NCBI RefSeq assembly: GCF_017352195.1
Contig: NZ_CP071445.1
Location: forward strand, 1,426,001 to 1,490,000
Direction of reading: 5' to 3'
Length of the DNA: 64,000 nt
From: Sedimentibacter sp. zth1
Lineage (GTDB): Bacteria; Bacillota; Clostridia; Tissierellales; Sedimentibacteraceae
In this document: in pieces, positions 10,793 to 60,315 of the stretch
How the letters are laid out: every line of letters starts with the position of its first letter
How positions within the stretch are numbered: position 1 is the first letter of the stretch
Notes under the pieces: model-generated
Told to the model about the DNA's origin: nothing
The model's input: the letters and a program-made list of their open reading frames with translations, nothing else
The model's database searches: none
Made by a program: the position numbers and the translations under genes

Positions 10793-11584
10793 GTATTTTA
10801 TTAATTTTTTTTCTAGCAACAGTGCTACATAATACATTACTGCAGCAATTATAGCTAATACAAACACGCCCATCATCACTAAATCGAGTTTAAATACTTG
10901 GCTACCATACACTATCAAATAACCTATTCCCGCCTTTGATACAAGAAATTCTCCAACTATTACTCCAACCCATGATAGTCCAATATTAACCTTTATAACA
11001 CTTAATAGCATTGGAATATTAGCTGGTATAATAAGTTTATGAAGTATTTGAAGTTTATTTGCGCCAAATGATTTTAACAATGTAACTTTATCCTGTTCAA
11101 CGTTTATAAACCCCGTATAAACACTAAGTGTTGTTACAACTACAGAAATAGATGCTGCAGTTACTACAATACCTGAGAATCCAGCACCTGCCCAAAGTAT
11201 AATTATAGGTGCAAGGGCTGTTTTGGGAAGGCTATTTAAAACAATAAGATAAGGTTCAAAAATTCTAGCTGATCTTTTAGACATCCACAATAAAATTGCT
11301 ACTACAATTCCAACTATTGTACCAAGTAGAAATCCTGCAATTGTTTCCATTGTTGATACATATATATGGTTTAGCAAACTTCCATTGCTAATAAAGGTCT
11401 TAACCATGCTTACTATTTTAAGTGGACTACTTGTCAAAAATGTATCTATTAATCCAAATGATGCACTAATCTGCCATATACCAAAAAATAAAACAAATAT
11501 TAGTATCTGACTAATTCGAACAATTTTTGTATCCCTTTTAATATTTAATAAATATTTTTTATGTTCTTTTGAGAAATTACTCAC
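10790..11584 (-). CDS. ABC transporter permease, NitT/TauT (SsuC-like) family
   Basis: This 264-residue integral membrane protein has about six hydrophobic helices. The EAA-type loop that contacts the ATPase is visible in the family pattern around residues 165-190 (SVYTGFINVEQDKVTLLKSFGANKLQILHKLIIPANIP, quoted here as: SVYTGFINVEQ, then LLKSFGANK, then LIIPANIP). The frame is open further upstream, but the GTG at 11582-11584 is chosen because it sits behind AAGGAG and overlaps the ATPase stop (GTGAGTAA). Relatives import sulfonates, nitrate, taurine or thiamine precursors. No substrate-binding protein gene lies beside it. Confidence 0.85.
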   Translation of the reverse strand: MSNFSKEHKKYLLNIKRDTKIVRISQILIFVLFFGIWQISASFGLIDTFLTSSPLKIVSMVKTFISNGSLLNHIYVSTMETIAGFLLGTIVGIVVAILLWMSKRSARIFEPYLIVLNSLPKTALAPIIILWAGAGFSGIVVTAASISVVVTTLSVYTGFINVEQDKVTLLKSFGANKLQILHKLIIPANIPMLLSVIKVNIGLSWVGVIVGEFLVSKAGIGYLIVYGSQVFKLDLVMMGVFVLAIIAAVMYYVALLLEKKLIKY

Positions 11585-12329
11585 CGAGCTCCAACTCCTT
11601 CCATATATCATTGAAATATCCGCCAAATTTATGATTATTACGACAATTCATTGGTGTCCTTTCATCATCTTCTAAGTCAAAGTATATATGAAACTCTTTT
11701 TTTATACATGCAGGTCTAGCCGTTAATACTATCACTCTATCTGACATACTTACGGCTTCAGGTATATCATGTGTAACTAAAATTGTTGTTTTTTTCTCTT
11801 TTCTAAGTATAGTACCCACATCGTTGCCAACTGATAATCTTGTTTGATAATCTAATGCTGAGAAAGGTTCATCTAACAACAATATATCAGGCTCAATAGC
11901 TAATGTTCTAGCTAATGCCGCCCGTTGTCTCATCCCTCCTGAAAGTTGTCTTGGATAATAATTCTCGAATTTTTCTAACCCATACTTTTCAAGCATTAAT
12001 TTAACTTTATTTATGTTATCTTTTGATTTCTTGTTCTTAATTTCTAAACCTATAAGGCAGTTATTTAGTATTGTTCTCCATTCATATAATTGATCTTTTT
12101 GAAACATAAACCCTATATTATTACTCTCTATATAAACCTCACCATATGAAGGCTCCTCAAAGCCTGCAATTATAGAAAGAATTGTTGATTTCCCACATCC
12201 TGATGGACCAACAATAGATACTATTTCACCTTTTTTTACCTCTAGTGATATATTATCAATAGCTTTAGTCTCATTTACTATAGTATGATAGTACTTGCCT
12301 ATATTTTTTAACTTACATACATATTCCAC
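11577..12329 (-). CDS. ABC transporter ATPase, NitT/TauT (SsuB/TauB-like) family
   Basis: This 250-residue ATPase has Walker A GPSGCGKST at residues 41-49, the signature LSGGMRQRAALAR near 135-147 and Walker B ILLLDEPFS near 155-163, followed by the switch histidine in LVTHD. It would energise the overlapping permease. An ATG at 12350 extends the frame by seven codons, but the GTG at 12327-12329 has GGAGGGG six bases ahead and is preferred. A decayed copy of this gene's 5' part lies at 25185-25607 in the same orientation. Confidence 0.88.
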   Translation of the reverse strand: MEYVCKLKNIGKYYHTIVNETKAIDNISLEVKKGEIVSIVGPSGCGKSTILSIIAGFEEPSYGEVYIESNNIGFMFQKDQLYEWRTILNNCLIGLEIKNKKSKDNINKVKLMLEKYGLEKFENYYPRQLSGGMRQRAALARTLAIEPDILLLDEPFSALDYQTRLSVGNDVGTILRKEKKTTILVTHDIPEAVSMSDRVIVLTARPACIKKEFHIYFDLEDDERTPMNCRNNHKFGGYFNDIWKELELGE

Positions 12330-12364
12330 GTTATCCCCTCCACACAGCATAACATTGTATTAAT

Positions 12365-25190: not shown

Positions 25191-25607
25191 CTAATGCCGC
25201 CCTTTGTCTCATACCTCCTGAAAGTTGTCTTGGATAATAATTCTCGAATTTTTCTAACCCATACTTTTCAAGCATTAATTTAACTTTATTTGTTTTATCT
25301 TTTGATTTTTCGTTCTTAATTTCTGAACCTAAAGACAGTTATTTAGTATTGTTCTCCATTCATATAATTGATCTTTTTGAAACATAAACCCTATATTATT
25401 ACTCTCTATATAAACCTCACCATATGAAGGCTCCTCAAAGCCTGCAATTATAGAAAGAACTGTTGATTTTCCACATCCTGATGGACCAACAATAGAAACT
25501 ATTTCACCTTTTTTTACCTCTAGTGATATATTATTAATAGCTTTAGTCTCATTTACTATAGTATGATAGTACTTACCTATATTTTTTAACTTACATACAT
25601 ATTCCAC
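25185..25607 (-). pseudogene. decayed 5' part of the ABC ATPase gene
   Basis: From the GTG at 25605-25607 the first ~90 codons match the ATPase at 11577-12329, including Walker A GPSGCGKST. A one-base loss near 25335 (CTAAAGACAG where the intact copy reads CTATAAGGCAG) shifts the frame and stops it. The homologous sequence continues to the LSGGM signature region and ends at 25185, so the Walker B half is missing. It is dead as an ATPase. Confidence 0.88.
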
Positions 25608-25682
25608 GTTATCCCCTACACACAGCATAACATTGTATTAATATATTGTTCAATTGCGGCTATTAAGTTAATCTTTTTAGGC

Positions 25683-35198: not shown

Positions 35199-36032
35199 TT
35201 ATTGTAATAATTGTAATACACCTTGTGGTTGCATATTGGCTTGTGCAAGCATTGCTTGAGCAGCTTGTGTAAGAATGTTGTTCTTAGTAAAGTCCATCAT
35301 TTCTTTAGCCATATCAACGTCTCTTATCCTTGATTCAGAAGCTGTTAAGTTTTCTTCTGTTACTGATAAGTTACTTACTGTATGCTCTAATCTGTTTTGA
35401 GCAGCACCTAATGCTGATCTTTGTGTAGATACTGCTTCTATAGCAGCGTCTACAGTTGCAATTGCTGCATTAGCATTAGTTTCATCATCTATATCTAAAG
35501 CGTTTACTGTTAATGAAGTAGCATCCATTGAATTTATATCAACTGTAATTCTTTGATCTGCTGCATTTTCAGTACCTATTTGGAATGTAAATGCTGCAGA
35601 TGAATTTGCTGTTCCATCACCATTTGCTAATGTCATACCATTGAATTTAGTAGATTTTGATATTCTGTCTATTTCTGTTGATAAAGCAGTAGCTTCAGCT
35701 TGTAATTTTGTTCTATCCTCATCAGTATATGTTCCATTTGATGATTGAACTGATAATTTTCTCATTCTTTGTAAGATTGAGTGTGTTTCATTTAAAGCAC
35801 CTTCAGCTGTTTGTATTAATGAAATACCATCTTGAGCATTTTGTTGAGCTTGTGATAAGCCATTGATTTGTGCTCTCATTTTTTCTGATATTGCTAATCC
35901 TGCAGCATCGTCTCCTGCTCTGTTGATTCTAAATCCTGATGATAATTTTTCTAAATTTTTAGATGATTTTCCAGTGTTTACACCTAAATTTCTGTGTGAA
36001 TTTAACGCGTTAATATTGTGTTGAATTCTCAT
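35199..36032 (-). CDS. fliC: flagellin (second gene of tandem pair)
   Basis: Flagellin builds the external filament. This 277-residue protein is a short form: conserved N-terminal D0/D1 (MRIQHNINALNSHRNLG, LSSGFRINRAGDDAAGLAIS) and C-terminal D1/D0 (ESRIRDVDMAKEMMDFTKNN to GVLQLLQ) with only about 90 variable residues between, exposed serine and threonine residues being possible O-glycosylation sites. Residues 1-103 and the last 77 are identical to the upstream flagellin. No sigma-28 boxes lie in the 78 bases between the two, so it is probably cotranscribed from the promoter at 37051-37077. A GGAGG site precedes ATG. Confidence 0.97.
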   Translation of the reverse strand: MRIQHNINALNSHRNLGVNTGKSSKNLEKLSSGFRINRAGDDAAGLAISEKMRAQINGLSQAQQNAQDGISLIQTAEGALNETHSILQRMRKLSVQSSNGTYTDEDRTKLQAEATALSTEIDRISKSTKFNGMTLANGDGTANSSAAFTFQIGTENAADQRITVDINSMDATSLTVNALDIDDETNANAAIATVDAAIEAVSTQRSALGAAQNRLEHTVSNLSVTEENLTASESRIRDVDMAKEMMDFTKNNILTQAAQAMLAQANMQPQGVLQLLQ

Positions 36033-36110
36033 AATTTAATTCCTCCATGAATTTTATTTTGGGACTCATTCCCTATATTTTTGTTACTATAAAATAGTTA
36101 ATTTACTTAG

Positions 36111-36944
36111 TTATTGTAATAATTGCAATACACCTTGTGGTTGCATATTAGCTTGTGCAAGCATTGCTTGAGCAGCTTGTGTAAGAATGTTGTTCTTAGT
36201 AAAGTCCATCATTTCTTTAGCCATATCAACGTCTCTTATTCTTGATTCAGAAGCTGTTAAGTTTTCTTCTGTTACTGATAAGTTACTTACTGTATGCTCT
36301 AATCTGTTTTGAGCAGCACCTAATGCTGATCTTTGTGTAGATACTGTTTCTATAGCTGTGTCTACAGTTGCAATTGCTGTATTAGAATCAGCTTCATTTG
36401 CAATGCTAATTCCTGAAACTCCTAAAGTATCAGCATCCATTGAAGATATTGAAACTGTAATTCTTTGGTCTGCTGCATTTTCAGTTCCTATTTGGAATGT
36501 AAATGATTTAACTGAATCTTTTGCTCCAGTACCATTTGCTAATGTCATACCATTAAATTTAGTTGAAGCAGAAATTCTATCGATTTCAGTTGTCAAAGCA
36601 GTAGCTTCTTCTTGTAATTTTGTTCTATCTTCATTAGTATATGTTCCGTTTGATGATTGAACTGATAATTTTCTCATTCTTTGTAAGATTGAGTGTGTTT
36701 CATTTAAAGCACCTTCAGCTGTTTGTATTAATGAAATACCATCTTGAGCATTTTGTTGAGCTTGTGATAAGCCATTGATTTGTGCTCTCATTTTTTCTGA
36801 TATTGCTAATCCTGCAGCATCGTCTCCTGCTCTGTTGATTCTAAATCCTGATGATAATTTTTCTAAATTTTTAGATGATTTTCCAGTGTTTACACCTAAA
36901 TTTCTGTGTGAATTTAATGCGTTAATATTGTGTTGAATTCTCAT
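36111..36944 (-). CDS. fliC: flagellin (first gene of tandem pair)
   Basis: This 277-residue flagellin is the twin of the one downstream. The differences are confined to about residues 104-200, where the exposed face of the filament subunit lies. It is the promoter-proximal copy, with a sigma-28 promoter at 37051-37077 and a leader of about 100 bases containing a 24-base near-palindrome. The 50 bases before the start codon, with GGGA...TCCC and TCATGGAGGAATT, are almost the same in front of both genes. Confidence 0.97.
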   Translation of the reverse strand: MRIQHNINALNSHRNLGVNTGKSSKNLEKLSSGFRINRAGDDAAGLAISEKMRAQINGLSQAQQNAQDGISLIQTAEGALNETHSILQRMRKLSVQSSNGTYTNEDRTKLQEEATALTTEIDRISASTKFNGMTLANGTGAKDSVKSFTFQIGTENAADQRITVSISSMDADTLGVSGISIANEADSNTAIATVDTAIETVSTQRSALGAAQNRLEHTVSNLSVTEENLTASESRIRDVDMAKEMMDFTKNNILTQAAQAMLAQANMQPQGVLQLLQ

Positions 36945-45182: not shown

Positions 45183-46634
45183 ATGTTAGAAAATATAAAA
45201 ATTACTGCTAATAACATAAATAACACAAATAATAATACAAGCAGGCCTAAAGTACCTGATCAAACAGAAAACTTAATACCTTTTGACATATTAGATCCTA
45301 CTCGTGTAAATAAGCCTTTAAAACAGGAAGGTTCCGAACTAAACAATCAAGCAAATGTTGCAAAAAACCCATATTCAGTAATTGAAAAGTTTTTGCAATC
45401 TTTAGATTCAGCACCTACACTAAGTGAGAATATGCGTAAAATTCTATTTAGCAAACAATTTATAAATTCTAATATTAAAACTGATCCATTACTTAAATCA
45501 TTCTTTGAAGAATTTGTTAAAGACATTAATATGGATAAAGAAAAAATGTTAGAATTTGTCAAATTTCAATATAATAATAATACAAAATTTTCTGGCAAAT
45601 TTTTTGATTTTATAAGAGACGCTATAAAGTTAAACCCTAATAGCGATTTCAAAAATGTTGTTTCTAGCTTTATGAAAAGCTATGATTGCTATTTGTCTGT
45701 TGATGAAACCACAACTGCAATTGCTAACATTTTAAAAAATATTAATCAAAATATGCCAGACATTTTAAAAGAAACTTTTTCAAATTTTATAGACAAACTA
45801 ATACTTGACAGCCCTACTAATAGTGCTGATATAAATCTTAATCTATTAAAAAATGAAATCATTCCGTACCTAAGTAAATATATTTCTAAAACAAATGACT
45901 TTGGCATAGTAAGAGACTATGTATCTGTATTAATACACAATATTGCTAGACTTGAAACAGGTTTAAAAGATAATTTTTCATATAGTGTTGAAAATATGTT
46001 CAACTATTTAAAATTCAGCTTTAATTTAAGTGATAAAGAAATTTCAGAATTAAAATATTCGTTAATTAACAGTTTTAGAGAACATTCAGCTGTAAAAAAC
46101 AATGCATTAGATTATATGTTTAAAATGATTGAAGCTGGCACAAAGGATAAAAATAACTATGTAAATAAAACCACATTTGATGATATAACAGAAAGCTTAT
46201 TGATAAGCAATAGCGTGCAAATTCCGTTAGTTCATATTTTTTTACCTGTGAATTTCAATGGTGTTTTTATGTTTTCAGAATTATGGATTAACAAAGAAAT
46301 AAATAATAATACTGAAAAAGATAAAGAAAATAAAAAAAGTAACGATATTAAGAATGAGGTGTTTAAAATTTTCTTAACATTTGATTTACAAAATGTAGGA
46401 TATTTTGAAACTACAATTGTATCTCAAGGAAATAAATTATCACTAGAAATATTTGTCCCTAATGCCCTTAAATGTAATGAAATCAATATAAAAAAAGATG
46501 TACAAAATATTATCAAAAAAAATGGTATTGAAGTAACAAACATATATATAAATGAAAGTACAAAGCAAAGAAAATTCAATGAAGTATTCGGAACTAAATT
46601 TATAAAGGAACGTGGTATAAATGTCATCGCATAA
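45183..46634 (+). CDS. FliK-like (YlqG-type) flagellar protein candidate
   Basis: This 483-residue protein has an asparagine-rich, low-complexity N-terminus, a helical middle, and a C-terminal beta-rich part from about residue 355 (IPLVHIFLPVNFNGVFMF, IFLTFDLQNVGYFETTIV, KLSLEIFVPN) that resembles the hook-length-control C-terminal domain. Its immediate partner is a stand-alone FlhB C-terminal domain, the same pairing as ylqG-ylqH in Bacillus. FliK-type proteins switch export from hook to filament subunits by touching FlhB. I saw no sequence motif that proves the role; pairing and layout carry the call. Confidence 0.55.
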   Translation: MLENIKITANNINNTNNNTSRPKVPDQTENLIPFDILDPTRVNKPLKQEGSELNNQANVAKNPYSVIEKFLQSLDSAPTLSENMRKILFSKQFINSNIKTDPLLKSFFEEFVKDINMDKEKMLEFVKFQYNNNTKFSGKFFDFIRDAIKLNPNSDFKNVVSSFMKSYDCYLSVDETTTAIANILKNINQNMPDILKETFSNFIDKLILDSPTNSADINLNLLKNEIIPYLSKYISKTNDFGIVRDYVSVLIHNIARLETGLKDNFSYSVENMFNYLKFSFNLSDKEISELKYSLINSFREHSAVKNNALDYMFKMIEAGTKDKNNYVNKTTFDDITESLLISNSVQIPLVHIFLPVNFNGVFMFSELWINKEINNNTEKDKENKKSNDIKNEVFKIFLTFDLQNVGYFETTIVSQGNKLSLEIFVPNALKCNEINIKKDVQNIIKKNGIEVTNIYINESTKQRKFNEVFGTKFIKERGINVIA

Positions 46635-46914
46635 AAATGTTAATAGAGCAGTAGCATTAAAATATAATCAAGAAAAAAATACAGCACCAGTCATTGTAGC
46701 ATCTGGAAATGGTTATGTTGCATCTAAGGTTGTAGAAATAGCCGAGGAAAATGGTGTTCCAGTTTATAAGGATGATTCATTAGCTGTAATGCTATCACAA
46801 CTAGAATTAGGAAGCGAAATTCCTGAAAATTTGTTTAAATCAATTGTTGACATTTATGTTTATTTTTTAAATTATAATAAAAATGATACCAAAGGAGAGA
46901 TAATAAATGAATGA
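46621..46914 (+). CDS. stand-alone FlhB C-terminal-like protein (YlqH/FhlB type)
   Basis: This 97-residue protein aligns by eye with the part of FlhB after its NPTH site: RAVALKYNQEKNTAPVIVAS here matches FAIAIKYDEKANRAPIVIAK in the window's own FlhB, and the pattern continues to the PEN/PFE segment near residue 78. There is no membrane part and no NPTH. Such stubs can stand in for the C-terminal half of FlhB in export switching. It overlaps the FliK-like gene by 14 bases and the next gene by 8. Confidence 0.85.
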   Translation: MSSHKNVNRAVALKYNQEKNTAPVIVASGNGYVASKVVEIAEENGVPVYKDDSLAVMLSQLELGSEIPENLFKSIVDIYVYFLNYNKNDTKGEIINE

Positions 46915-48952
46915 TAATATAATATTCTCTCTTGATATTGGAACTAGATCAATAGTTGGAGTAGTTGCTGAAAAATATGAAGAGACCATGAAAGTAATTG
47001 CATATAAAAGTGTTTTTCATGAACAAAGGACTATGGTTGATGGTCAAATAGAGGATATAAAAAAAGTAAGTAAGGGTATTGAAATTGTAAAAAGCAGTTT
47101 AGAACAAGAGCTTGGAATGAAATTCACTAAAGTTTACATAGCAGCTGCAGGAAGATCTTTAAAAACCGAAAAAGTTATTTATGAAAAAATACTAGATTCT
47201 AAAAAACCATTGGATGAGAATATTAAAAAAATACTAGAAATGGATGCACTCCAAAAAGCTCATGATAAATTCTATGATAACTATGATAACAAAGGTTCTT
47301 TTTATTGCGTAGGATATAGTGTTTTAGGTTATAAAATTGATAACAACAGTATAGCAAATATAGAGGGTCATAGAGCTGAAAAAGTTTCAGTAGAAATTAT
47401 AGCAGCATTTTTACCACACATAGTAGTTGAGGGACTATACTCTTGTATGGACTATAACAATCTTGACGTACAAAGCTTGACACTAGAACCTATTGCAGCA
47501 ATGAATCTTGTCATACCTGCTGATTTAAGATTATTAAATATTGCTTTAGTTGATATAGGTGCAGGTACTTCAGATATAGCAGTATCCAAAGATGGTACAA
47601 TAATTGGTTATGACATGGCTACAATTGCTGGAGATGAGATTACAGAAAGCATAATGAAAAGTCATCTTGTAGACTTTAAAACTGCTGAAAAAATAAAAAT
47701 GTCTTTAGACGATGATATGGAGAAAATTGAATTTACTGATATACTAGGCATGCATTATTCATTGACAAAGGAAAATATAATTGACTCTATTTCTAATACA
47801 TCTCTTCAATTGTGCCAAGAAATTGCAACTAAAATACTTAGCTTAAACAATGAGCCTCCAGTTGCTGTATTTTTGATTGGTGGTGGTAGTAAAACTTCCA
47901 ATTTGAGAAAGTATTTGTCAGAATTTTTGAATTTGCCTGAGTATAGAATAGCTATAGGTTCAGAAAGCACTGTGAAAAATGTTGATATTTCCATTATAGA
48001 TAATTTTGGTCCTGAGCTTATCACACCTGTTGGTATTTCCTATTCAAGTATAATTAACAATAACTACGATTTCTTTAGCGTAATAGTTAATGGAATAAAA
48101 ATAAGATTATATAATATTAGACAAATGAAAGTTATGGATGCACTTTTAATGGCTGGATTTGATTCACGTAAATTAATGGGGTTTTCAGGCAAAACTCTTA
48201 GCTTTATATTAAACAATAAGGAGTATTTTTATAAAGGTGAGTATTCTACTCCAGCTCAAATTTTTGTAAATTCTAATGTGTCTAATATTGAGACAAAAAT
48301 TTGCCCCGGTGATATTATAGAAGTTATTGCTGCAGTAGATGGTGTAACACCTGTAGTAAAAATTTCTGATATTGTAGATAATTCAGAAAGTGGTAAAATT
48401 ATTTTTAATAATACTGAAGTAACAATAGGTACAAAATATCTAGTCAATAATATCGAAGTTGAAAGTGATTATATAATTGGAAATTCAGATATTATTGAAA
48501 TAATTAACATAAAAACACTAAACGATTTAGTTGACTTATTAGAAATCAATCCAGAGTTTTATGTTTTCAAAGTTTCTAATAAAGTAATTGATTTAAGTAC
48601 TATTTTAATTGATAATTCTACGATAGAAGTCATTTCAAAATCCAATTACAATGATGAAGAAGTTTCCAAACGAAATCAAACTTATAGCCAAAATATAAGT
48701 GATATACATGAATACAGTATCGTAAAAGACTATATAACTGTTAGTATTAATGGCGAAACTAAGAAGTTAAATTTTAAAGAGGATAAATTGCCATACATTT
48801 TTGCTGATATGTTAATTTACACAAATATTGACCCTACTAAACCACAGGGTAAAATAATAATATTACATAATGGTAACGAAGCCTCTTATACTAGTATAAT
48901 AAATGACGGTGATGATATAGTAATTAAATGGCAAAATAGCAATAATATTTAG
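46907..48952 (+). CDS. FtsA-like actin-family protein with long C-terminal extension
   Basis: The first 390 residues carry the actin/FtsA fold: FSLDIGTRSIVGVVAE (phosphate 1) at about 6-21, LVDIGAGTSDIAVSK (phosphate 2) near 215, and VFLIGGGSKTSNLRKYLSEF near 322 (adenosine site). FtsA is usually near 420 residues; this protein is 681. The extra 290 residues are mostly beta strand with two similar modules (KVMDALLMAGFD..., and ITVSINGETKKLNF...) and no membrane helix at the end. It is not next to ftsZ but in a flagellar setting, 8 bases inside the FlhB stub. Role unknown; a scaffold or localisation ATPase is possible. Confidence 0.75.
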   Translation: MNDNIIFSLDIGTRSIVGVVAEKYEETMKVIAYKSVFHEQRTMVDGQIEDIKKVSKGIEIVKSSLEQELGMKFTKVYIAAAGRSLKTEKVIYEKILDSKKPLDENIKKILEMDALQKAHDKFYDNYDNKGSFYCVGYSVLGYKIDNNSIANIEGHRAEKVSVEIIAAFLPHIVVEGLYSCMDYNNLDVQSLTLEPIAAMNLVIPADLRLLNIALVDIGAGTSDIAVSKDGTIIGYDMATIAGDEITESIMKSHLVDFKTAEKIKMSLDDDMEKIEFTDILGMHYSLTKENIIDSISNTSLQLCQEIATKILSLNNEPPVAVFLIGGGSKTSNLRKYLSEFLNLPEYRIAIGSESTVKNVDISIIDNFGPELITPVGISYSSIINNNYDFFSVIVNGIKIRLYNIRQMKVMDALLMAGFDSRKLMGFSGKTLSFILNNKEYFYKGEYSTPAQIFVNSNVSNIETKICPGDIIEVIAAVDGVTPVVKISDIVDNSESGKIIFNNTEVTIGTKYLVNNIEVESDYIIGNSDIIEIINIKTLNDLVDLLEINPEFYVFKVSNKVIDLSTILIDNSTIEVISKSNYNDEEVSKRNQTYSQNISDIHEYSIVKDYITVSINGETKKLNFKEDKLPYIFADMLIYTNIDPTKPQGKIIILHNGNEASYTSIINDGDDIVIKWQNSNNI

Positions 48953-48972: not shown

Positions 48973-49590
48973 ATGATAGACAATTCACTTTTAGTAAAAA
49001 TATTTGATAGAAATAAGCAGTATCTTGGCAAAGGTAAACTAGATAAAATAGTTGGCAGTAGAATTGTAATTAAGGGAAATAACTTGCCTATAATACATTC
49101 TAAAGAAACTATATTTTTAAATGTTTTTAACGAATTGAGGGGTGTTTTAATATACGAATGTATTGTAAACATAGGAGCTAATATGCAATTAACAGCTACT
49201 ATACTTAAGCAGCATGGCACAATTGAAAGAAGAAGAACATTAAAAATCAGAACAGCTTATACAACTTCTATTCGACTTGTAATACGTGACAATAAAGCAT
49301 TAAGTATAAAAGATCCAATAGTTATTAAAATGCTTAATTTAAGTATTGGAGGCATGCTATTTACATCTAAAGAAACATTTTGCATAAATGATATAATTAC
49401 ATTTACTTTTGATCACTATCAAAATTGCTCAATTGATTTAGAAGCAAAAATTATTAGAGTTGATAAAACAATTGATGAGTATAATAATGATAATTATGGT
49501 TGTATTTTTATAGGTGTTACTCCATATGATGAAAATGTTATCTGTAAATACCTATACGAAAGACAATTACAAATTTACAAGAAAAAATAA
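48973..49590 (+). CDS. PilZ-domain protein (YcgR-like)
   Basis: This 205-residue protein has an N-terminal YcgR-like beta domain (about 1-85) and a PilZ domain with the c-di-GMP-binding RRRTLKIR near residues 84-91 and NLSIGGM near 127-133. PilZ proteins of this design bind c-di-GMP and slow the flagellar motor. AAGGGAG precedes ATG. The HD-GYP enzyme at 215 would be an opposing activity. Here the PilZ gene follows the FtsA-like gene by 20 bases. Confidence 0.85.
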   Translation: MIDNSLLVKIFDRNKQYLGKGKLDKIVGSRIVIKGNNLPIIHSKETIFLNVFNELRGVLIYECIVNIGANMQLTATILKQHGTIERRRTLKIRTAYTTSIRLVIRDNKALSIKDPIVIKMLNLSIGGMLFTSKETFCINDIITFTFDHYQNCSIDLEAKIIRVDKTIDEYNNDNYGCIFIGVTPYDENVICKYLYERQLQIYKKK

Positions 49591-49619: not shown

Positions 49620-51686
49620 TTGAATAAAAAAATATTATCAATAATTCTTCTTTTTACTATGCTTTTTAGCTTTATATTATCAAGCACAGTAATAGCAGAT
49701 ACTACTATTCCAGCACTTAGGTCAATCTCTCTTAATAGCGGTAAAAGCTTATATTTAGAAGTAGGAGATATAAAAACTTTATCAGTATCAACTAGACCTA
49801 AAAATGCAGCAAAAACTGAAATTAAATTTACAACTGGTGATGAAAAAATTGTTACTATAAATAAAACAGGTACAGTTAAAGCAATAAAAACTGGTAAAAC
49901 CACTTTAACTGCTGAAATGAATGGAAAAAAGTCTACTATTTATGTAACGGTTTATATAAATAATAATTTACAGGCAAGTTTTGTAGAAACAGATATTGTA
50001 AAAGATAAAATAAAAAATATTACAATTAATGTATCTTCTAAAGATGGGAATACAGATAATTTTTATATATATTTACCTACTGGCTATAGAATTTCAGGAA
50101 CGACTGCTACTTTTGCGGCAGATAGAAATGGCTCATATCCTTTTACGGTATATGATAATACCGGTACTAAAAAAACATTTTATTATGAGATTACCAATAT
50201 AAAAGACAAATATTATGAAAAACCACATACAGATTATGATGATAACATATTTGACATAAATATTCTATATAATAATATGAATTTGAAGTATGATTATGAA
50301 AAAAAGCAACTATTATTTAATGCTGATTTAGATAAAATACGTACTGTTAAATTACCTAACAACACTGTAACTGAAAGTAATGAAATTAATTATTATATTT
50401 CTGCAATAAACAATGGATTATTTTATGAATATAGCTTTGAAGTAGATAATCAACCAATGAATTGTAAAATTATAAGACAAGGTGAATTTTACCTAATGAT
50501 GATATGGAAACATTATAAAAACGATGATAGAAATATTTTAGTTGATTACAAAGCTTATAACTTTACTATTAATAGCGATGTTATGACCTATCCAACAAGT
50601 GATTTCATAACTGATAACGGTAATTATATAATAGAAGCATATACTAAATTAGGACAAAAAGAAATATTTTCATTATCAATTGATAATATTGATTATATGA
50701 AACCGTCTGCAAGTATTGCTATAACTTATGATGATTTGTTTGAGTTAAATATTGTTGATAACGCTATGCTTGATTATATTATTACTTTCGATGGCAAATA
50801 TATAGATATCCCAAACAATTACGTACCTAATACAATTTATACATATAAACACGATATACCATTTAAATATAATGGAGAATACTTATTTATTATTGTTGAT
50901 GCCAGTGGCAATAGAACAATTGCTAAATCAACTATTACTAGCAAGCATAATGTTTTGTTTACTAAAAAGCTTGGTCCAGATGTTCACAATTCATTAGAAA
51001 CCATTTCATTATTTAAAGAAACTGGTATCTTATATGATAAGGTAGAAGCAAATAGCGCCTATTATAATAATATTTTTCCATCGTATATGAAGGGTATATC
51101 TAACACAAGCTTTAAACCCGATTCTACGATAACACGTGCACAAATGGTTACAATATTATGTCGAGTAACAGATTTACCATATGATATAAACCTACTTGAT
51201 AAGTCTAGATTAACAGACGTAACCAACCATTGGGCAGTAAATTATATTTGTATGGGAAATGCTAAAAAATATATTAGAGGCTACAGAGATAAAACATATA
51301 AACCAGATAATTCCTTGAAAAGAGGTGACTTTTGCAAAATGATTTGCAATATATCATCACTTAAATCAAAGATTTCTGCGATACCTTCTGTTAATAATTA
51401 TGCTTATAATGATATAAATGGACATTATGCAAAACCTGAAATATTGAAACTAGTTAATAGAGATTTGGTTTTAGGAAATGGTGAAAATTTTAATCCAGAT
51501 AAACCTATTACAAGAGCAGAGGTTATTTACGCAATCAATAAACTTTATAATCTAAAGCCCTCTGATGATGAAATGAACTATATAGAATCTTTATATAATA
51601 AATATTATAATTTCAATGATATCAATAACCACAAGTATTATGAAGATATTTTAATCTCACTTATAGGAATGTACAGAGAAAAATAA
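49620..51686 (+). CDS. secreted protein with Ig-like (BIG2) and three SLH domains
   Basis: The 688-residue protein starts at a TTG seven bases after AAGGAGG and has a clear signal peptide (basic NKK, hydrophobic core, cleavage near SSTVIADT at about residue 27). A bacterial Ig-like domain follows (about 32-120, with VTINKTGTVKAIKTGKTTLT). The middle is beta-rich and unrecognised. Three SLH motifs close the protein, centred near residues 500 (SFKPDSTITRAQMV), 560 (GYRDKTYKPDNSLKRGDFC) and 635 (ENFNPDKPITRAEV). SLH domains hold proteins to cell-wall secondary polymers, which often need pyruvylated sugars. It ends at a terminator. Confidence 0.88.
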   Translation: MNKKILSIILLFTMLFSFILSSTVIADTTIPALRSISLNSGKSLYLEVGDIKTLSVSTRPKNAAKTEIKFTTGDEKIVTINKTGTVKAIKTGKTTLTAEMNGKKSTIYVTVYINNNLQASFVETDIVKDKIKNITINVSSKDGNTDNFYIYLPTGYRISGTTATFAADRNGSYPFTVYDNTGTKKTFYYEITNIKDKYYEKPHTDYDDNIFDINILYNNMNLKYDYEKKQLLFNADLDKIRTVKLPNNTVTESNEINYYISAINNGLFYEYSFEVDNQPMNCKIIRQGEFYLMMIWKHYKNDDRNILVDYKAYNFTINSDVMTYPTSDFITDNGNYIIEAYTKLGQKEIFSLSIDNIDYMKPSASIAITYDDLFELNIVDNAMLDYIITFDGKYIDIPNNYVPNTIYTYKHDIPFKYNGEYLFIIVDASGNRTIAKSTITSKHNVLFTKKLGPDVHNSLETISLFKETGILYDKVEANSAYYNNIFPSYMKGISNTSFKPDSTITRAQMVTILCRVTDLPYDINLLDKSRLTDVTNHWAVNYICMGNAKKYIRGYRDKTYKPDNSLKRGDFCKMICNISSLKSKISAIPSVNNYAYNDINGHYAKPEILKLVNRDLVLGNGENFNPDKPITRAEVIYAINKLYNLKPSDDEMNYIESLYNKYYNFNDINNHKYYEDILISLIGMYREK

Positions 51687-51717
51687 AAAGATGATTTTAA
51701 TCATCTTTATTTTTTTT
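51687..51717. terminator. terminator between the SLH gene and the acidic protein gene
   Basis: AAAGATGAT pairs with ATCATCTTT around TTTA and is followed on the plus strand by ATTTTTTTT. It starts right after the SLH stop and contains the stop codon of the minus-strand gene; on the minus strand its T tract is shorter. Confidence 0.85.
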
Positions 51718-52533
51718 GTTTATATCCATAATTACTTTTATAATCTCTAATATTATATCAACACTTTTTTTGTTTTTTTCTTTTTCTACTTCTTGATTTA
51801 CTTTTTCTTCAGTTCCTTCAAAATAATACTCCGGACACTTTTTAAGTACCATATTTACAATATCTTGCTTTTTTATTAAGCTATCGCTAATTTGAAATCT
51901 ACCCAAAATGTTGTCTATTTTTTCTTGAATCATCAATTCATATATGTTCACTTGTAAAATAGCTTCTTCAACCTCTTGTTTAGATACATTTTCGTCAATA
52001 TTATCAACAGCATCAAGATTATTGTTTTCTTCAATAATACTTTCATCTTCTATGTCTAAAATTGTCTGATTTTCAAAATTCTCTTCTTCAATTATATTTT
52101 TTTTAAGTTCTTCTGTTGTTTCCTCTAATTCTTTATTTTTATTATATATTGTAATTTCCTTCATTTCCTTATTAGGTTCTTCTCTTGATTTCAAACCTAT
52201 AGAAACATAGCTTATGTCATCTTTTTTGCCAATATAATACCTTATACTACCTTCATCTTCAGCCTGTTCAATACTATTTGAATTATTAACTTCTTCACTT
52301 ACAATATCATTTTCATTATGACCATTAATTTCTTGAAGTTCACTAAGAATTTTATTGCTAATACTAGATATATTAGATTTGATTTTATTACTTCCATCTG
52401 CATGTTTTTTAGATTGTAATTTATTATTATCTTTATCTTCTATCAAATTTTTTTCATTTGCATCATTAAACATTGAAGGCATTATTTTTTTGTACATAGC
52501 CTCTTTGCTAAATTCTTTTTTTCTTTTAGCCAT
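51697..52533 (-). CDS. acidic protein paired with the ParA-type ATPase, function unknown
   Basis: I do not recognise this 278-residue protein. A basic start (MAKRKKEFSKEAMYKK) leads to a long acidic, asparagine-rich, probably disordered middle (about 25-195), and then a short predicted helical domain (about 195-245, IYELMIQEKIDNILGRFQIS and MVLKKCPEYYF) before a charged tail. It starts 3 bases after the parA stop and is the last gene of the flagellar/chemotaxis operon. By position it could be the partner (ParB- or ParP-like adaptor) of the ATPase; no HTH or ParB box is seen. Confidence 0.6.
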   Translation of the reverse strand: MAKRKKEFSKEAMYKKIMPSMFNDANEKNLIEDKDNNKLQSKKHADGSNKIKSNISSISNKILSELQEINGHNENDIVSEEVNNSNSIEQAEDEGSIRYYIGKKDDISYVSIGLKSREEPNKEMKEITIYNKNKELEETTEELKKNIIEEENFENQTILDIEDESIIEENNNLDAVDNIDENVSKQEVEEAILQVNIYELMIQEKIDNILGRFQISDSLIKKQDIVNMVLKKCPEYYFEGTEEKVNQEVEKEKNKKSVDIILEIIKVIMDINKKNKDD

Positions 52534-52535
52534 TA

Positions 52536-53297
52536 TTATATTCCTCTAGTAATTAGTTCTTTTACAAAATTCATGTAATCTTTTACTGCATTGTTTCGAG
52601 AAGCATATTTATACATATCTTCTTGTTGTGTATGTACTTCTTGAATACTAACACTTGCCCTAATATATGTATCAAATATTGTAGTACCTAACTGTTGAGC
52701 AATCATTTCAGCTGTCTCCCTAATTTCTGAGCTTAAAATTAATCTTGGGTTATATCTTGTAAGAAGTATTCCTTCAATTTTTATAGCTGGATTACAGTAT
52801 TTTTTTACTCTAGTTATCGTCTCATATAATTGTGTTATACCTTGCAAACTAAAAATATCCGCTAACATAGGTATAATAATACAATCTGCGACTGCGAAAG
52901 CATTAATTGTCAAAATATTTAAAGAAGGTGGTGTATCTATTACGATATAGTCATATTCATTTTGAACACTTGACAATGCTTCTTTTAATAAGAATTCTCT
53001 TCCCGTATGTGTAAATTCTAAATCAACACCACTTAGTATAATATTAGACGGTATAATATCTATAATTTCAGTTTTTTGTATAGCATCATGTACACTAACA
53101 TCGCCCTTCAAAACATCATATATGGTAGCACTCTCATCAACTTCAGCTTTAACACTAAAACTTAAATTGCCCTGTGGATCTAAATCAATTAATAATACTT
53201 TATATCCCTTTTTCTTAAATCCAAGTCCAATAGCATTAGAAGTCGTAGTTTTAGCAACCCCGCCTTTCTGATTAGTAACACAAATTGTTTTAGCCAT
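52536..53297 (-). CDS. ParA/Soj-type ATPase in a chemotaxis operon
   Basis: This 253-residue deviant Walker ATPase has KGGVAKTTT at residues 10-18, LIDLDPQGNLSFS near 36-48 and IVIDTPPSLNIL near 117-128. It is Soj/ParA-like by length and pattern, not MinD/FlhG-like, as it has no C-terminal amphipathic membrane helix. ParA-type proteins place plasmids, chromosomes, chemoreceptor arrays or flagella by gradients on nucleoid or pole. In an operon with cheC and cheD a role in placing chemotaxis arrays is the natural guess. No parS-like repeats were seen next to it. Confidence 0.85.
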   Translation of the reverse strand: MAKTICVTNQKGGVAKTTTSNAIGLGFKKKGYKVLLIDLDPQGNLSFSVKAEVDESATIYDVLKGDVSVHDAIQKTEIIDIIPSNIILSGVDLEFTHTGREFLLKEALSSVQNEYDYIVIDTPPSLNILTINAFAVADCIIIPMLADIFSLQGITQLYETITRVKKYCNPAIKIEGILLTRYNPRLILSSEIRETAEMIAQQLGTTIFDTYIRASVSIQEVHTQQEDMYKYASRNNAVKDYMNFVKELITRGI

Positions 53298-53327
53298 TTT
53301 TTCTCCTTTCCAGCTATATTAAGCAAT

Positions 53328-53819
53328 TTAAATAACTTTTATACCTTTTGCAAATGATTTAACAGTTAAATCTCCATTAGTACAATCAAAAAATATTGTT
53401 CTACCATAGTTAAGCCCTGTATCCTCTGCTACTAAACGTATTTTCAAATCTTGCAAGGTTTTTTTTACAGCAATTACGTTTCTTTCACCTATATTTCCTA
53501 TACTACTTTTTCCGTCATCTTTTACTTCAAACATCTTGGCCCCACCAGCAATTTTAGCGGTCATTCTAATTTTGACACAACCTTTTTGTTCTAATAAGTG
53601 AACCATTTCTGTGATTCCAGTATCTGCAAATTTATATATTTGATTTATATCATCTAGATTGTTGTTTTTTGGTAACATTATATGAACCATTCCACCAATT
53701 TGTTTAATCTTATCTAATATACATATTCCTACACATGAACCTAAAGCATATGTTGCTATTGTATCGGGAGCTGACACAATTTGCATATCAGATATCCCTA
53801 CGTTTACTGTATTTTTCAT
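53328..53819 (-). CDS. cheD: chemoreceptor glutamine deamidase CheD
   Basis: CheD deamidates receptor glutamines and binds CheC. The catalytic cysteine C29 lies in ALGSCVG and the histidine H46 in GGMVHIMLP, the two family marks; AKIAGGAKMF near residue 90 and NIGERNVIAVK near 109 follow. Length 163 is usual. It overlaps cheC by 4 bases. Confidence 0.95.
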   Translation of the reverse strand: MKNTVNVGISDMQIVSAPDTIATYALGSCVGICILDKIKQIGGMVHIMLPKNNNLDDINQIYKFADTGITEMVHLLEQKGCVKIRMTAKIAGGAKMFEVKDDGKSSIGNIGERNVIAVKKTLQDLKIRLVAEDTGLNYGRTIFFDCTNGDLTVKSFAKGIKVI

Positions 53820-54439
53820 ATTTCAATTCCTAATCCTTGTAACAATTTATTTAAAGAGTCTACATCAGGAATCATTATTATATGACTGTCAACAGTATCT
53901 TCATCTGCGTAAAATTTTTCTTGAATGAATACCACTTTATCAGAAACATTTGCAAATTCTATTGCTGGGACACTTAAAATAGCACCTGCCATATCAATTG
54001 TTAATGCTGGAACTGATATGTCAATTGTTAAACCAGTTAATCCTGCTATTGAATTTATATAAGAAGCTATCATTATATTACCTATTTCAGATAAAGCTGA
54101 TATCTCCATTTCTCCAATTTCCTCAAATTTATCTATGTTAGTACCAAGCAATGAATTAACTACCATACATACAAAATCACGTTTTAATAAAAACATAACC
54201 ATACCATTAAGGTCAATGGACATTCTTATCAAAATTCCTAAAACTATATTTTCAGGTCCCCCCATCAAATCTACTGCTTCGTTAAATTTAAGTAATTTAA
54301 CCTCAGGTACTTCCATATCTACCTTTTTCATTAACATTTGCGATAGCGACGTAGCAGCATTACCAGCTCCTATATTACCAATTTCTTTAAGAATGTCAAT
54401 GTGCATTTCATTTAGCTGTTCAAAATTTTTTATAATCAT
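53816..54439 (-). CDS. cheC: CheY-P phosphatase CheC
   Basis: This 207-residue protein has both CheC phosphatase helices: DILKEIGNIGAGNAATSLS near residues 14-32 and EISALSEIGNIMIASYINS near 108-126, each with the conserved E-x2-N pattern. CheC dephosphorylates CheY-P and is stimulated by CheD, encoded just downstream. Start ATG follows GGAGGG at the end of the FapA gene. Confidence 0.95.
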   Translation of the reverse strand: MIIKNFEQLNEMHIDILKEIGNIGAGNAATSLSQMLMKKVDMEVPEVKLLKFNEAVDLMGGPENIVLGILIRMSIDLNGMVMFLLKRDFVCMVVNSLLGTNIDKFEEIGEMEISALSEIGNIMIASYINSIAGLTGLTIDISVPALTIDMAGAILSVPAIEFANVSDKVVFIQEKFYADEDTVDSHIIMIPDVDSLNKLLQGLGIEI

Positions 54440-57480: not shown

Positions 57481-58245
57481 CTAATATTCTAAATATTTTT
57501 TTATGTAAATATTTAACTTTTGTAATGCTCGTGAATGTATTTGCGAAGCTCTTGAATTACTTATATTTAATAAATTAGCAATATCTTTGAGTTTAATTTC
57601 TTCTTTATAATACAAAGATATTAATAATTTTTCTTTTTCATTAAGCTTATCTATAGCATTTGCTAACACAGATTGCAGTTCTTTTTTTATAAAATTATCT
57701 TCTGGTGATGAATCATTTACACCACTTGTTTTCAAAGTAGACAATTGATTAATCATATCCTCAAAGGATAATAAATTTACATTATATGTTTCAGCAATTA
57801 TTTTATTATAGCTTATAACATCAATATCTAAATATGATGCAATTTCTTTTTCAGTTGGATTTCTTCCTAGTTTGTTACTTAATTCTTTCTCTGCGGATTC
57901 AATAAGTTTTTTATTTCTATTAACTCTTCTAGGTGTCCATGCTTGTCTCCTACAATAATCAATTATAGCACCTTTCACTCTAATTGAAGCGTAAGTTTCA
58001 AATTTTGTATTTTTTGACAAATCAAACTTGTTAATAGCATCTATTAGAGCTAAAATACCTTCGTTAATTACATCGTCCATATCTCCATATTGTTGATACA
58101 TTCCTCTAATACGAATAGCAATAATCTTTACAATATAGCTATATTTTTCAATGATTTCATTTCTAGTAGCAATATCTTTTGTTATTGAGTACTTTTTCCA
58201 TAGTACATCATCATTTTTAATAATTTGTGCTTCTATCATGTTCAT
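57481..58245 (-). CDS. fliA: flagellar RNA polymerase sigma-28 factor
   Basis: This 254-residue sigma-70 family protein has region 2 (INEGILALIDAINKFDLSKN near 83-102, then FETYASIRVKGAIIDYCRRQ, quoted at the limit), region 3 (VNRNKKLIESAEKELS, LGRNPTEKEIASYL) and region 4 (KEKLLISLYYKEEIKLKDIA and SNSRASQIHSRALQKL), the design of FliA/SigD. It should read the three TAAA-N15-CGATAT promoters in this window, at 37051, 40581 and 45016. A GTG just upstream or ATG at 58239 are possible alternative starts. Confidence 0.95.
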   Translation of the reverse strand: MNMIEAQIIKNDDVLWKKYSITKDIATRNEIIEKYSYIVKIIAIRIRGMYQQYGDMDDVINEGILALIDAINKFDLSKNTKFETYASIRVKGAIIDYCRRQAWTPRRVNRNKKLIESAEKELSNKLGRNPTEKEIASYLDIDVISYNKIIAETYNVNLLSFEDMINQLSTLKTSGVNDSSPEDNFIKKELQSVLANAIDKLNEKEKLLISLYYKEEIKLKDIANLLNISNSRASQIHSRALQKLNIYIKKYLEY

Positions 58246-58254
58246 CACTCTCTA

Positions 58255-60315
58255 CTATTTAATTTCAACGTTACCTATTGCTTGTATTTGAACTGAATTG
58301 TCAATTTCATTAAATGATAATACTGTAGCATTAGGGTAAAACTGATCTATAAGCTTTTTAAAATATATTCTAACAAATGGTGAAGTTAAAATTATTGGTG
58401 TACTTATAACTTCCTTCAAGTTTTGAATTTGCTCTAATAAAGATTTAACAATTTTTTGTATTGTATCTGGGTCTATTGTTAAATACGAGCCATGATCATT
58501 TTTATTTACAGAAGTAATCATTAATTTTTCTATATCTGTACTTAATGTTATTACTTTAATTTGACCACCATCGGCCCATTTTCTAGTAATAGTTCTCTTA
58601 AGTGCCTGTCTCACATACTCGGTCAACATTTCTGTATCTTTTACTGAAACACCATAATCACCAATTGTCTCTAAAATTGTTTCCATATCTCTTATTGGAA
58701 TACTCTCTTTTAACAGGTTGCCAAGAATTTTTTGTAGATTTCCATAACTCATTAATGATGGTATTACCTCATCAACAATTGTCTCATTAGTCTTTTTAAC
58801 ATTTGTCAATAATTGATTAATATCTTGTCTAGACAATAATTCATTAGCATGCTTCTTAACAATTTCTGATAAATGAGTAACTAATACTGATAATGGATCA
58901 ATAACTGTATATCCATATATTTCGGCTAAATCTTTCTTATCCTTAGTTATCCATTTGCTTGGGATTCCATATGCAGGCTCTATTGTATCAATACCATCTA
59001 CAGAACCCGTAACATTTTTAGGTTCTAATGCTAGAAAATAATCTACTAGTATTTCACCTCTAGCTATTTCTTCTCCCTTAATTTTAATCAAATATTCATT
59101 AGGATTTAAATATCCATTGTCCTTTAGTACAACTGAAGGAACAACCATACCCATCTCCATAGCAAATTGTCTTCTAAACATTACAATTCTATCTATAAAA
59201 CTACCACCAGAATTTTCATCAACAAGTGGTATTAAGCTATATCCAACTTCCATCTCAATTGGGTCAACTTGAATAAGCTCATATATATTATCTATATTTC
59301 TATAGTAAGTTTCGTCATTAACAATTTCTTCTTTTTCATTTTCATTCTGTAAGGCGGATTCTTCGATCTCTTTATTAGTGTTTTGTGTTCTTAATAATCT
59401 AACTCCTAATAATATTAAAATTGTAGCTAAAAATAAAATTTGAGGTTTTGGAAATCCTGGTATAAAACACATTAATACTAACACTATTCCAGAAATAATT
59501 AAAACCATAGGTTGAGATAAAAACTGCCTTGAAATTTCTACACTTAAGCTTGATTCTGATGCTGCCCTTGTAACTACCATACCTGTAGCAGTTGATATCA
59601 AAAGTGCTGGTAACTGTGATACAAGTCCATCACCAACCGTAGCAATAGTATATGTTGACAAAACATCAGTAAATGAACCAGTTCCTTGTACCATCCCAAT
59701 TACAACACCGGCAATAAAGTTAATTAATGTTATAACTATAGAAGCAATAGCATCACCTTTTACAAATTTGGTAGCACCATCCATAGCCCCATAAAAATCT
59801 GCTTCTTTTTGAATCTTATGTCTTCTTATTCTTGCTTCTTGCTCTGTTATTATACCAGAATTCAAATCAGCATCTATTGCCATCTGCTTACCTGGCATAG
59901 CATCTAATGTAAATCTAGCAGAAACCTCTGCAACTCTCTCTGTACCTTTTGTGATAACAAGGAATTGTATAATAACTATAATTAAGAATATAATAAATCC
60001 TATAACTGCTTTCCCTTGTAAAACAAAATCACCAAAAGTAGCTATAACAGCTCCCGCCTGTCCACCATTACTCAATATTAATCTTGTAGATGAAATATTT
60101 AGAGCTAGCCTAAATATAGTCGTAATCAACAATATTGAAGGAAATATTGAAAACTGTAAAGATTCAGTTATATACATTGTAGTTAATAATATTATAATTG
60201 ACAAAGTTATATTAATAATAAACATCATATCCAACATAAAAGCTGGCAATGGAATTATTATCATCAAAATTACTAACATTATAAATAAGGTGATTGTATT
60301 GTTCATTAATTTCAT
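58255..60315 (-). CDS. flhA: flagellar export gate protein FlhA
   Basis: FlhA forms the cytoplasmic ring of the flagellar type III export gate. The 686-residue protein has about eight transmembrane helices in the first 310 residues, with the FHIPEP-family cytosolic loop RFTLDAMPGKQMAIDADLNS near 140-159 and KEADFYGAMDGATKFVKGDA near 178-197. The C-terminal half is the soluble export domain (GYTVIDPLSVLVTHLSEIV near 455). ATG follows AAAGGA. The next gene downstream is sigma-28, not flhF. Confidence 0.97.
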   Translation of the reverse strand: MKLMNNTITLFIMLVILMIIIPLPAFMLDMMFIINITLSIIILLTTMYITESLQFSIFPSILLITTIFRLALNISSTRLILSNGGQAGAVIATFGDFVLQGKAVIGFIIFLIIVIIQFLVITKGTERVAEVSARFTLDAMPGKQMAIDADLNSGIITEQEARIRRHKIQKEADFYGAMDGATKFVKGDAIASIVITLINFIAGVVIGMVQGTGSFTDVLSTYTIATVGDGLVSQLPALLISTATGMVVTRAASESSLSVEISRQFLSQPMVLIISGIVLVLMCFIPGFPKPQILFLATILILLGVRLLRTQNTNKEIEESALQNENEKEEIVNDETYYRNIDNIYELIQVDPIEMEVGYSLIPLVDENSGGSFIDRIVMFRRQFAMEMGMVVPSVVLKDNGYLNPNEYLIKIKGEEIARGEILVDYFLALEPKNVTGSVDGIDTIEPAYGIPSKWITKDKKDLAEIYGYTVIDPLSVLVTHLSEIVKKHANELLSRQDINQLLTNVKKTNETIVDEVIPSLMSYGNLQKILGNLLKESIPIRDMETILETIGDYGVSVKDTEMLTEYVRQALKRTITRKWADGGQIKVITLSTDIEKLMITSVNKNDHGSYLTIDPDTIQKIVKSLLEQIQNLKEVISTPIILTSPFVRIYFKKLIDQFYPNATVLSFNEIDNSVQIQAIGNVEIK

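Follow-up and report, generated by a model that had tools for sequence, protein, structure and literature searches.

The window analysed here, a stretch of 64,000 nucleotides from Sedimentibacter sp. zth1, belongs to a 3.13 Mb genome assembled as a single contig and placed in family f1 and genus g1, a genus other than that of the Sedimentibacter members of the family. On its minus strand, flhA is followed by a sigma-28 gene, two flgG/flgF-type genes, fapA, cheC, cheD, a gene encoding a ParA-type ATPase (parA), and a gene encoding a second protein, referred to below as the partner. The features relevant to this analysis are as follows:

48973..49590, plus strand: PilZ-domain gene of the c-di-GMP receptor type in the same cluster (Pfam PilZ, 36.4 bits)
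49620-51686, convergent with the partner gene: S-layer homology domain gene, the next gene past the partner
51679..51716, no strand: AT-rich inverted repeat at the convergent junction, a possible end for both transcripts, although the terminator scan did not call it
51697..52533, minus strand: partner gene (278 aa), encoding an N-terminal peptide, an acidic linker and a C-terminal ComFB domain
51700..51963, minus strand: degenerate ComFB domain of the partner, residues 191-278 (Pfam, Foldseek, residue check)
51964..52461, minus strand: acidic linker of the partner, residues 25-190, mostly of low confidence (charge, AlphaFold pLDDT)
52462..52533, minus strand: basic N-terminal peptide of the partner, residues 1-24, MAKRKKEFSKEAMYKKIMPSMFND, presumed to activate ParA
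52536..53297, minus strand: parA (253 aa, NQKGGVAKTTT, neither N- nor C-terminal extension)
53328..53819, minus strand: cheD, directly upstream of parA
53816..54439, minus strand: cheC, upstream of parA on the same strand
57481..58248, minus strand: sigma-28 gene, the first gene past flhA (label read from the sequence)
58255..60315, minus strand: flhA, upstream of the sigma-28 gene

The spacings are 30 nt between cheD and parA, 2 nt between parA and the partner gene, and 6 nt between flhA and the sigma-28 gene. A preliminary description of this locus had reported the ATPase and its 278-residue partner after cheC-cheD, and sigma-28 directly after flhA; the two ORFs are exactly as it gave them, and neither flhF nor flhG lies between flhA and sigma-28. 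A promoter scan was uninformative (24 found, 22.5 expected), and a terminator scan found none. Elsewhere in the window, a FliK-like gene and an FlhB-C-type gene (45183-46914, both labels from reading) precede a gene within the flagellar region that encodes an FtsA/PilM-like protein with a ThiS-like stretch (46907-48952), and a 36% identical protein is encoded near the parA-partner pair of genome G373. In Erysipelotrichaceae and genus g422, the pair likewise lies next to an FlhB-C-type gene, in most cases accompanied by a FliK-like gene. Two nearly identical tandem flagellin genes (277 aa) are found at 35199-36944, and an ABC-transporter gene (11577-12350) recurs about 13 kb off as a near-identical 99-aa fragment (25329-25628).

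The ATPase matches Pfam AAA_31 with 190 bits, and its profile matches solved ParA/Soj chains. Both lysines of the deviant Walker A motif (K11 and K16) and the Walker A' and B aspartates (D40 and D121) are present; in an alignment with Soj, R185 coincides with a Soj Arg and R213 lies one residue off the next. It had been called Soj-like on the basis of KGGVAKTTT and the lack of a membrane helix, which agrees with our results: the motif is present, and in the alignment both termini are about level with those of the Soj encoded in the same genome, which indicates that there is no membrane-targeting tail. That Soj is accompanied in the genome by two ParB-type genes, and further ParA-like genes are present; the window ParA is 35% identical to that Soj and 60-65% identical to the ParAs of ten other such pairs in the family. 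At the ends of contig C1 of genome G000 (L005 and L007), a ParA-like gene seemingly spans the contig start, as if a circular chromosome had been cut inside the gene. Places matching the window ParA at E<=1e-58 are rare, occurring in 6 of 391 genomes of the class and 8 of 398 of the phylum when the window's own is counted.

The partner was initially described as acidic and disordered. The first part holds, with a net charge of -21 made up of a linker at -23 and 24 N-terminal residues at +4, and the second holds only for part of the protein. In an AlphaFold model built from a 20-row alignment, the linker has pLDDT block means mostly below 60 (above 60 at residues 51-70), while residues 191-278 are folded with block means of 80-96 and resemble ComFB. 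This ComFB domain and the conserved N-terminal peptide had both been overlooked. For the window partner, Pfam gives one weak match, to ComFB (PF10719) over residues 195-273, with 18.9 bits against a cut-off of 25; a profile of the partner and 11 family homologues, however, matches Bacillus subtilis ComFB (4wai, E=1.4e-6), and seven of nine partners tested from other lineages exceed the Pfam ComFB cut-off (39.1 to 108.6 bits), the partners at L095 and L190 having no Pfam ComFB match. The top five Foldseek hits of the full-length model were 4wai (ComFB) and 8hja (CdgR, a c-di-GMP receptor) at probabilities of 0.97-0.99; the E-values, 0.075-0.13, are weak, which may be due to disorder in most of the model. 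Taken from the predicted model, the C-terminal domain of the partner has the ComFB fold. Searches of Pfam and NCBIfam found in the partner no CheW-like, MCP, ParB-type, other DNA-binding, output or known array-binding domain.

The available part of PMC4381287 lists N4, E7, D33, N40 and Y46 as the dimer interface of B. subtilis ComFB, and C25, C27, C30 and C88 as its zinc site. We compared these with the partners in an alignment of 20 rows (A3), 19 of which were picked by an exact MYKKIMP pattern; one further locus, L101, was excluded because it is cut by the end of its stretch. Outside the N-terminal motif, the only invariant columns are N196, E199, D224 and Y237, which align with N4, E7, D33 and Y46, so that four of the five dimer-interface residues are kept, the position of N40 being K231 in the window copy. 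At five other positions, the window copy has I215, S216, S218, K221 and D277, as opposed to C, C, C, C and H in all 19 other rows. In the clostridial proteins the C-terminal His would be the fourth metal ligand, and judging from the alignment none of the presumed zinc ligands is left in the window ComFB domain. Given an uninterrupted reading frame and an unaltered N-terminal motif, this looks like a loss of sensing or metal binding and not like decay.

The N-terminus of the partner (MAKRKKEF..EAMYKKIMPS) is basic. In family alignment A1, built from sequences found by a whole-protein search, the pattern MxKxKKxF....MYKKIMP accounts for 12 of the 22 invariant columns, and residues 13-19 are identical across the 12 sequences. 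These residues are also invariant in A3, but there by construction, since the rows were selected by pattern, so A1 is the fairer set. Variants of the motif are MYNKIMP (G012), LYQKIMP (G717) and MFNKIMP (G847). A search for MYKKIMP in one genome per species (84,980 species) returned 45 stretches, 20 of which encode partner proteins that carry it close to their N-terminus; the remaining 25 are unrelated or have no fitting reading frame. A ParA gene was seen beside 18 of these 20 partners, and the other two lie at contig ends. Twelve come from Sedimentibacter relatives, three from Erysipelotrichaceae, two from Oscillospiraceae, one from Peptococcaceae, and two from records labelled only 'Clostridiales'.

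Besides this A-type N-terminus, a second type (B) begins like KSSKTAHVLNLI and continues into a long linker. B-type partners carry ComFB in G353, G274, G233 and G817 (by Pfam) and in G682 and G706 (by sequence; the G706 partner is at L183), and those of G373 and L190 have a C-terminus that Pfam does not recognise. L190 (L190:4001-5386) comes from a record named 'Bacteriophage sp.' (MT835480) with genes for PilZ, a diguanylate cyclase, ParA and a B-type partner, and this record looks like bacterial chromosome. Accessible portions of PMC7993993 and PMC10241942 describe a basic N-terminal stretch, carried on varied domains, as a feature shared by partners that activate ParA/MinD ATPases. Among 33 ParAs placed in a tree, all 14 with A-type partners, the window's included, form one group (moderate support of 82/89; 88% of bootstrap trees), all eight with B-type partners form another (support 99/98), and those followed by short ribbon-helix-helix-like (RHH-like) partners fall outside both. 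That the peptide type tracks the ParA group is what would be expected if peptide and ATPase touch.

The RHH-like partners bear on whether the pair is a DNA partition system of plasmid origin, remnant or active, that has landed in a flagellar cluster. Close ParAs (about 45-50% identical) are found on plasmids and mobile elements followed by short RHH-like proteins, a label that was read from sequence except in L187, the only one of three tested with Pfam matches, the best of which is just below the cut-off. Among the 13 ParA places at E<=1e-58 besides the window's, an A- or B-type partner comes next in nine and an RHH-like one in four. By eye, the N-termini at L098, L180 and L187 resemble the A motif, but we rejected this likeness as strong evidence, since a scoring test over nine RHH-like partners favours L098 only (p=0.0022, before correction for nine tests; L180 gave 0.037 at another position and the other seven 0.09-0.88). 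At L098:1453-2611, G233 encodes another close ParA; it is followed by an RHH-like partner, and an MCP gene adjoins. Several observations argue against partition. The partner has no DNA-binding domain recognised by Pfam or NCBIfam, no clear centromere-like repeat occurs in 51400-54000, and the window contains no parS-like site at up to three mismatches, contrary to the parS-linked role in chromosome segregation that the preliminary description had named as the competing case. Further, the genome already has Soj with its ParB-type genes, and the motility context of the pair recurs across lineages. We discarded plasmid or chromosome partition on the missing domain, site and repeat, and regard it as very improbable that the pair is a remnant or active partition system.

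Within the family, a full partner was found in 16 of 27 genomes, each with FlhA and CheW as well, and in none of the five without FlhA (Fisher p=0.006, a value that ignores kinship and genome incompleteness). ParA adjoins the partner in all 15 Sedimentibacter-group genomes, with a whole P-loop in 13 and ParA cut by a contig end in G017 and G025. The gene cheW is near the pair in 11 of these 15: it lies 529-573 nt from parA in nine, and next to the partner gene, downstream, in G017 and G025. Of the nine, six continue with an MCP gene, a second cheW, flgM, flgN, flgK and flgL, two have a second cheW-type gene with the same flg genes, and one ends with the stretch. Around the pairs of G003, G005, G020 and G022, the sequence read shows no motility gene up to 6 kb away.

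Of the 18 pair loci outside the family, 15 lie no more than 6 kb from a flagellar or chemotaxis gene; L161 and L190 have only PilZ and L178 (G717) has nothing, although a flgB-type gene occurs 4.2 kb away at L161. Within 1.5 kb the count is 13 of 18, with only PilZ at L181 and L183 and none at L161, L178 and L190. L178:5294-6619 encodes a 441-aa partner in which an A-type N-terminus is followed by two tandem ComFB domains, with no motility genes in 14 kb. By comparison, flagellar or chemotaxis neighbours are absent from all 29 stand-alone ComFB loci examined outside the family, in stretches of about 3.2 kb each (flanks of about 1.5 kb per side, as opposed to 6 kb for the pairs); these are the best-scoring of the 111 genomes of the class, the window's excluded, with a ComFB-type match, and not a random draw. 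One of nine ParAs with RHH-like partners (L098) is near an MCP gene, again with shorter flanks. A counter-control came from the family itself, where 11 of 15 stand-alone ComFB loci (11 of 14 besides the window's own) lie beside cheC or cheD with no ParA, and ComFB may possibly have a functional tie to cheC-cheD. In Sedimentibacter relatives (L080-L093, e.g., L080:1501-1770), cheD and an S-layer-domain gene have a stand-alone ComFB gene between them, in the slot that parA and the partner gene occupy in the window.

As to whether the pair is conserved with cheCD in relatives, conservation near motility genes was found, but the linkage to cheC-cheD is not general. In Sedimentibacter the neighbours are cheW, mcp and flgM/N/K/L, and in other lineages fliD, flgK or flhB-C genes. 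G353 and G274 have the order flhA, sigma-28, flgG/F, cheC, cheD, cheV, an EAL-HDOD gene, the pair, fliD and fliS, which is close to that of the window up to cheD and likewise has sigma-28 directly after flhA.

This last feature is relevant to the view that the pair governs the place or number of flagellar basal bodies and stands in for FlhG where flhF-flhG are missing. The two genes had been described as missing from the operon, and the genome-wide search largely agrees: nothing exceeds the TIGR03499 cut-off for FlhF, the best matches being FtsY and Ffh, and no FlhG is evident among the 11 PF13614 places of the genome. The nearest FlhG candidate is a divergent MinD-like ATPase near C1:356,000, which scores 78.9 bits where the MinD cut-off is 212.9. 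FlhF is above the cut-off in none of 31 genomes (27 family members plus four genomes with B-type partners; 20 have the pair), as compared with 2 of 14 control genomes, and pairs often adjoin flgK, flgN, flgL, fliD or flhB-C genes, which would fit a flagellar role as does the order in G353 and G274. FlhF is, however, below the cut-off in all 31 genomes with or without the pair, for which reason we dropped substitution for flhF-flhG as the main reading. Six of the 22 flagellated family genomes (G001, G007, G010, G014, G015 and G024, the last only 62% complete) lack both FlhF and a full-length partner match, so flagella do not depend on the pair, which cannot be called a replacement of FlhF-FlhG; the suggestion that it makes up for their loss is weak. 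The window ParA has no membrane-targeting extension, and chemotaxis neighbours also weigh against a purely flagellar role (cheW in most Sedimentibacter-group genomes, cheD in the window, and cheV one gene off in G353 and G274). We consider the placement or counting of basal bodies fairly unlikely, though it is the strongest of the alternatives.

The neighbourhood also contains genes of second-messenger signaling. The pairs at L102, L130, L128, L158, L137, L182, L190 and L095 have PilZ, GGDEF or EAL-HDOD genes no more than about 1.2 kb away, and together with the receptor fold these genes suggest that c-di-GMP or c-di-AMP may play a role. The pair could then be a regulator instead of a positioner, with ComFB sensing c-di-GMP, c-di-AMP or zinc and ParA serving as an ATP-driven output acting on motility genes or the motor. 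PilZ, GGDEF and EAL-HDOD genes are common in flagellar clusters anyway, which lessens the weight of these neighbours. Cyanobacterial ComFB/CdgR binds both c-di-GMP and c-di-AMP according to the available text of PMC12313861, and the portions of PMC13075795 and PMC10519070 at hand name no CdgR residues that contact c-di-GMP. With the Cys/His ligands lost from the window copy, and an output domain missing from the Pfam and NCBIfam matches, a purely regulatory pair seems improbable.

Our favored explanation, which we hold to be probable, is that parA and the partner gene form a two-gene system that positions chemosensory arrays or flagella through a ComFB adaptor. ATP-bound ParA dimers would coat the nucleoid, and the adaptor, dimerising via its ComFB domain, would carry a motility cargo, most likely the chemosensory array and otherwise a flagellar component. 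Its N-terminal peptide would trigger ATP hydrolysis and release of ParA, by which the cargo would be distributed along the nucleoid and passed to both daughter cells. Where relatives retain the Cys/His site, the system could be gated by a cyclic dinucleotide or by zinc; in the window species gating has probably been lost, with the ComFB domain kept mainly for dimerisation or docking. The neighbours favor chemotaxis in the window, most Sedimentibacter, L128, G353 and G274, and flagellar genes elsewhere; since the flagellar late genes (flgK, flgN and fliD) are as frequent as chemotaxis genes, they do not settle which cargo is carried. The likeness to ParC-ParP proposed at the outset, with an unrelated partner, was upheld in part: the ParA-plus-adaptor layout, the lack of a CheW-like domain and a link to motility in several families are found, the last in different arrangements.

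More speculatively, the pair may belong to a widespread class of cargo-positioning systems in Bacillota, in which a ParA derived from plasmid partition would have had the DNA-binding domain of its partner replaced by ComFB, a second messenger would switch the segregation of arrays or flagella, and the window lineage, having lost sensing, would be constitutive. We think this broader scenario unlikely as a whole. In the literature searched, whose scope left out preprints and most subscription papers, we found no description of a ParA with a ComFB adaptor; of the papers that mention both ComFB and ParA, one names ParA as the B. subtilis soj gene in an expression table, and the available passages of the other concern competence genes of another organism. 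ParA positioning of chemosensory arrays is documented in Proteobacteria, namely Vibrio, Rhodobacter and Halothiobacillus, in the available sections of PMC10241942 and PMC5706961. If our explanation is true, such positioning extends to Bacillota, a major phylum, with an adaptor class of its own, and many ComFB proteins gain a role outside competence. Second-messenger gating of a partition-type ATPase would become testable, and the two peptide types that follow two ParA groups offer a ready test of how ParA chooses its adaptor.

Several known systems resemble the pair in part. FlhG (MinD2/YlxH) is likewise a ParA/MinD ATPase within a flagellar cluster, and carries an N-terminal activator motif ahead of its P-loop and a C-terminal membrane helix. 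The window ParA, in contrast, begins MAKTICVTNQKGG with no N-terminal extension, has no C-terminal membrane-targeting extension, and has no flhF neighbour (FlhG features in part from PMC12826062). The pair differs from ParABS partition in that the partner lacks a ParB-type DNA-binding domain and the window a parS-like site. From PomX, McdB, ParG and ParB, in which a basic N-terminal peptide is likewise joined to an unrelated domain (PMC7993993, in part), it differs in that the joined domain is ComFB. Compared with ComFB/CdgR (PF10719; 4wai, 8hja), the partner shares the fold and four dimer-interface residues, and its relatives also the clustered Cys, but it is fused to a ParA-type N-terminal peptide and a linker, and the window copy is without metal ligands.

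Closer in presumed function is PpfA-TlpT of Rhodobacter sphaeroides, in which, as far as the available text of PMC7993993 and PMC5706961 goes, a nucleoid-based ParA positions a chemoreceptor cluster and the N-terminus of TlpT is basic. A basic N-terminus on the ParA partner is common to both; TlpT, however, is a predicted cytoplasmic chemoreceptor, whereas the partner described here has no MCP domain. ParC-ParP of Vibrio is similarly composed of a ParA-type ATPase and an adaptor and serves chemotaxis arrays, the N-terminus of ParP contacting its ATPase (PMC5706961, in part). Instead of ending in a CheW-like AIF domain as ParP does, the partner ends in a ComFB fold, with CheW at most a separate neighbour.
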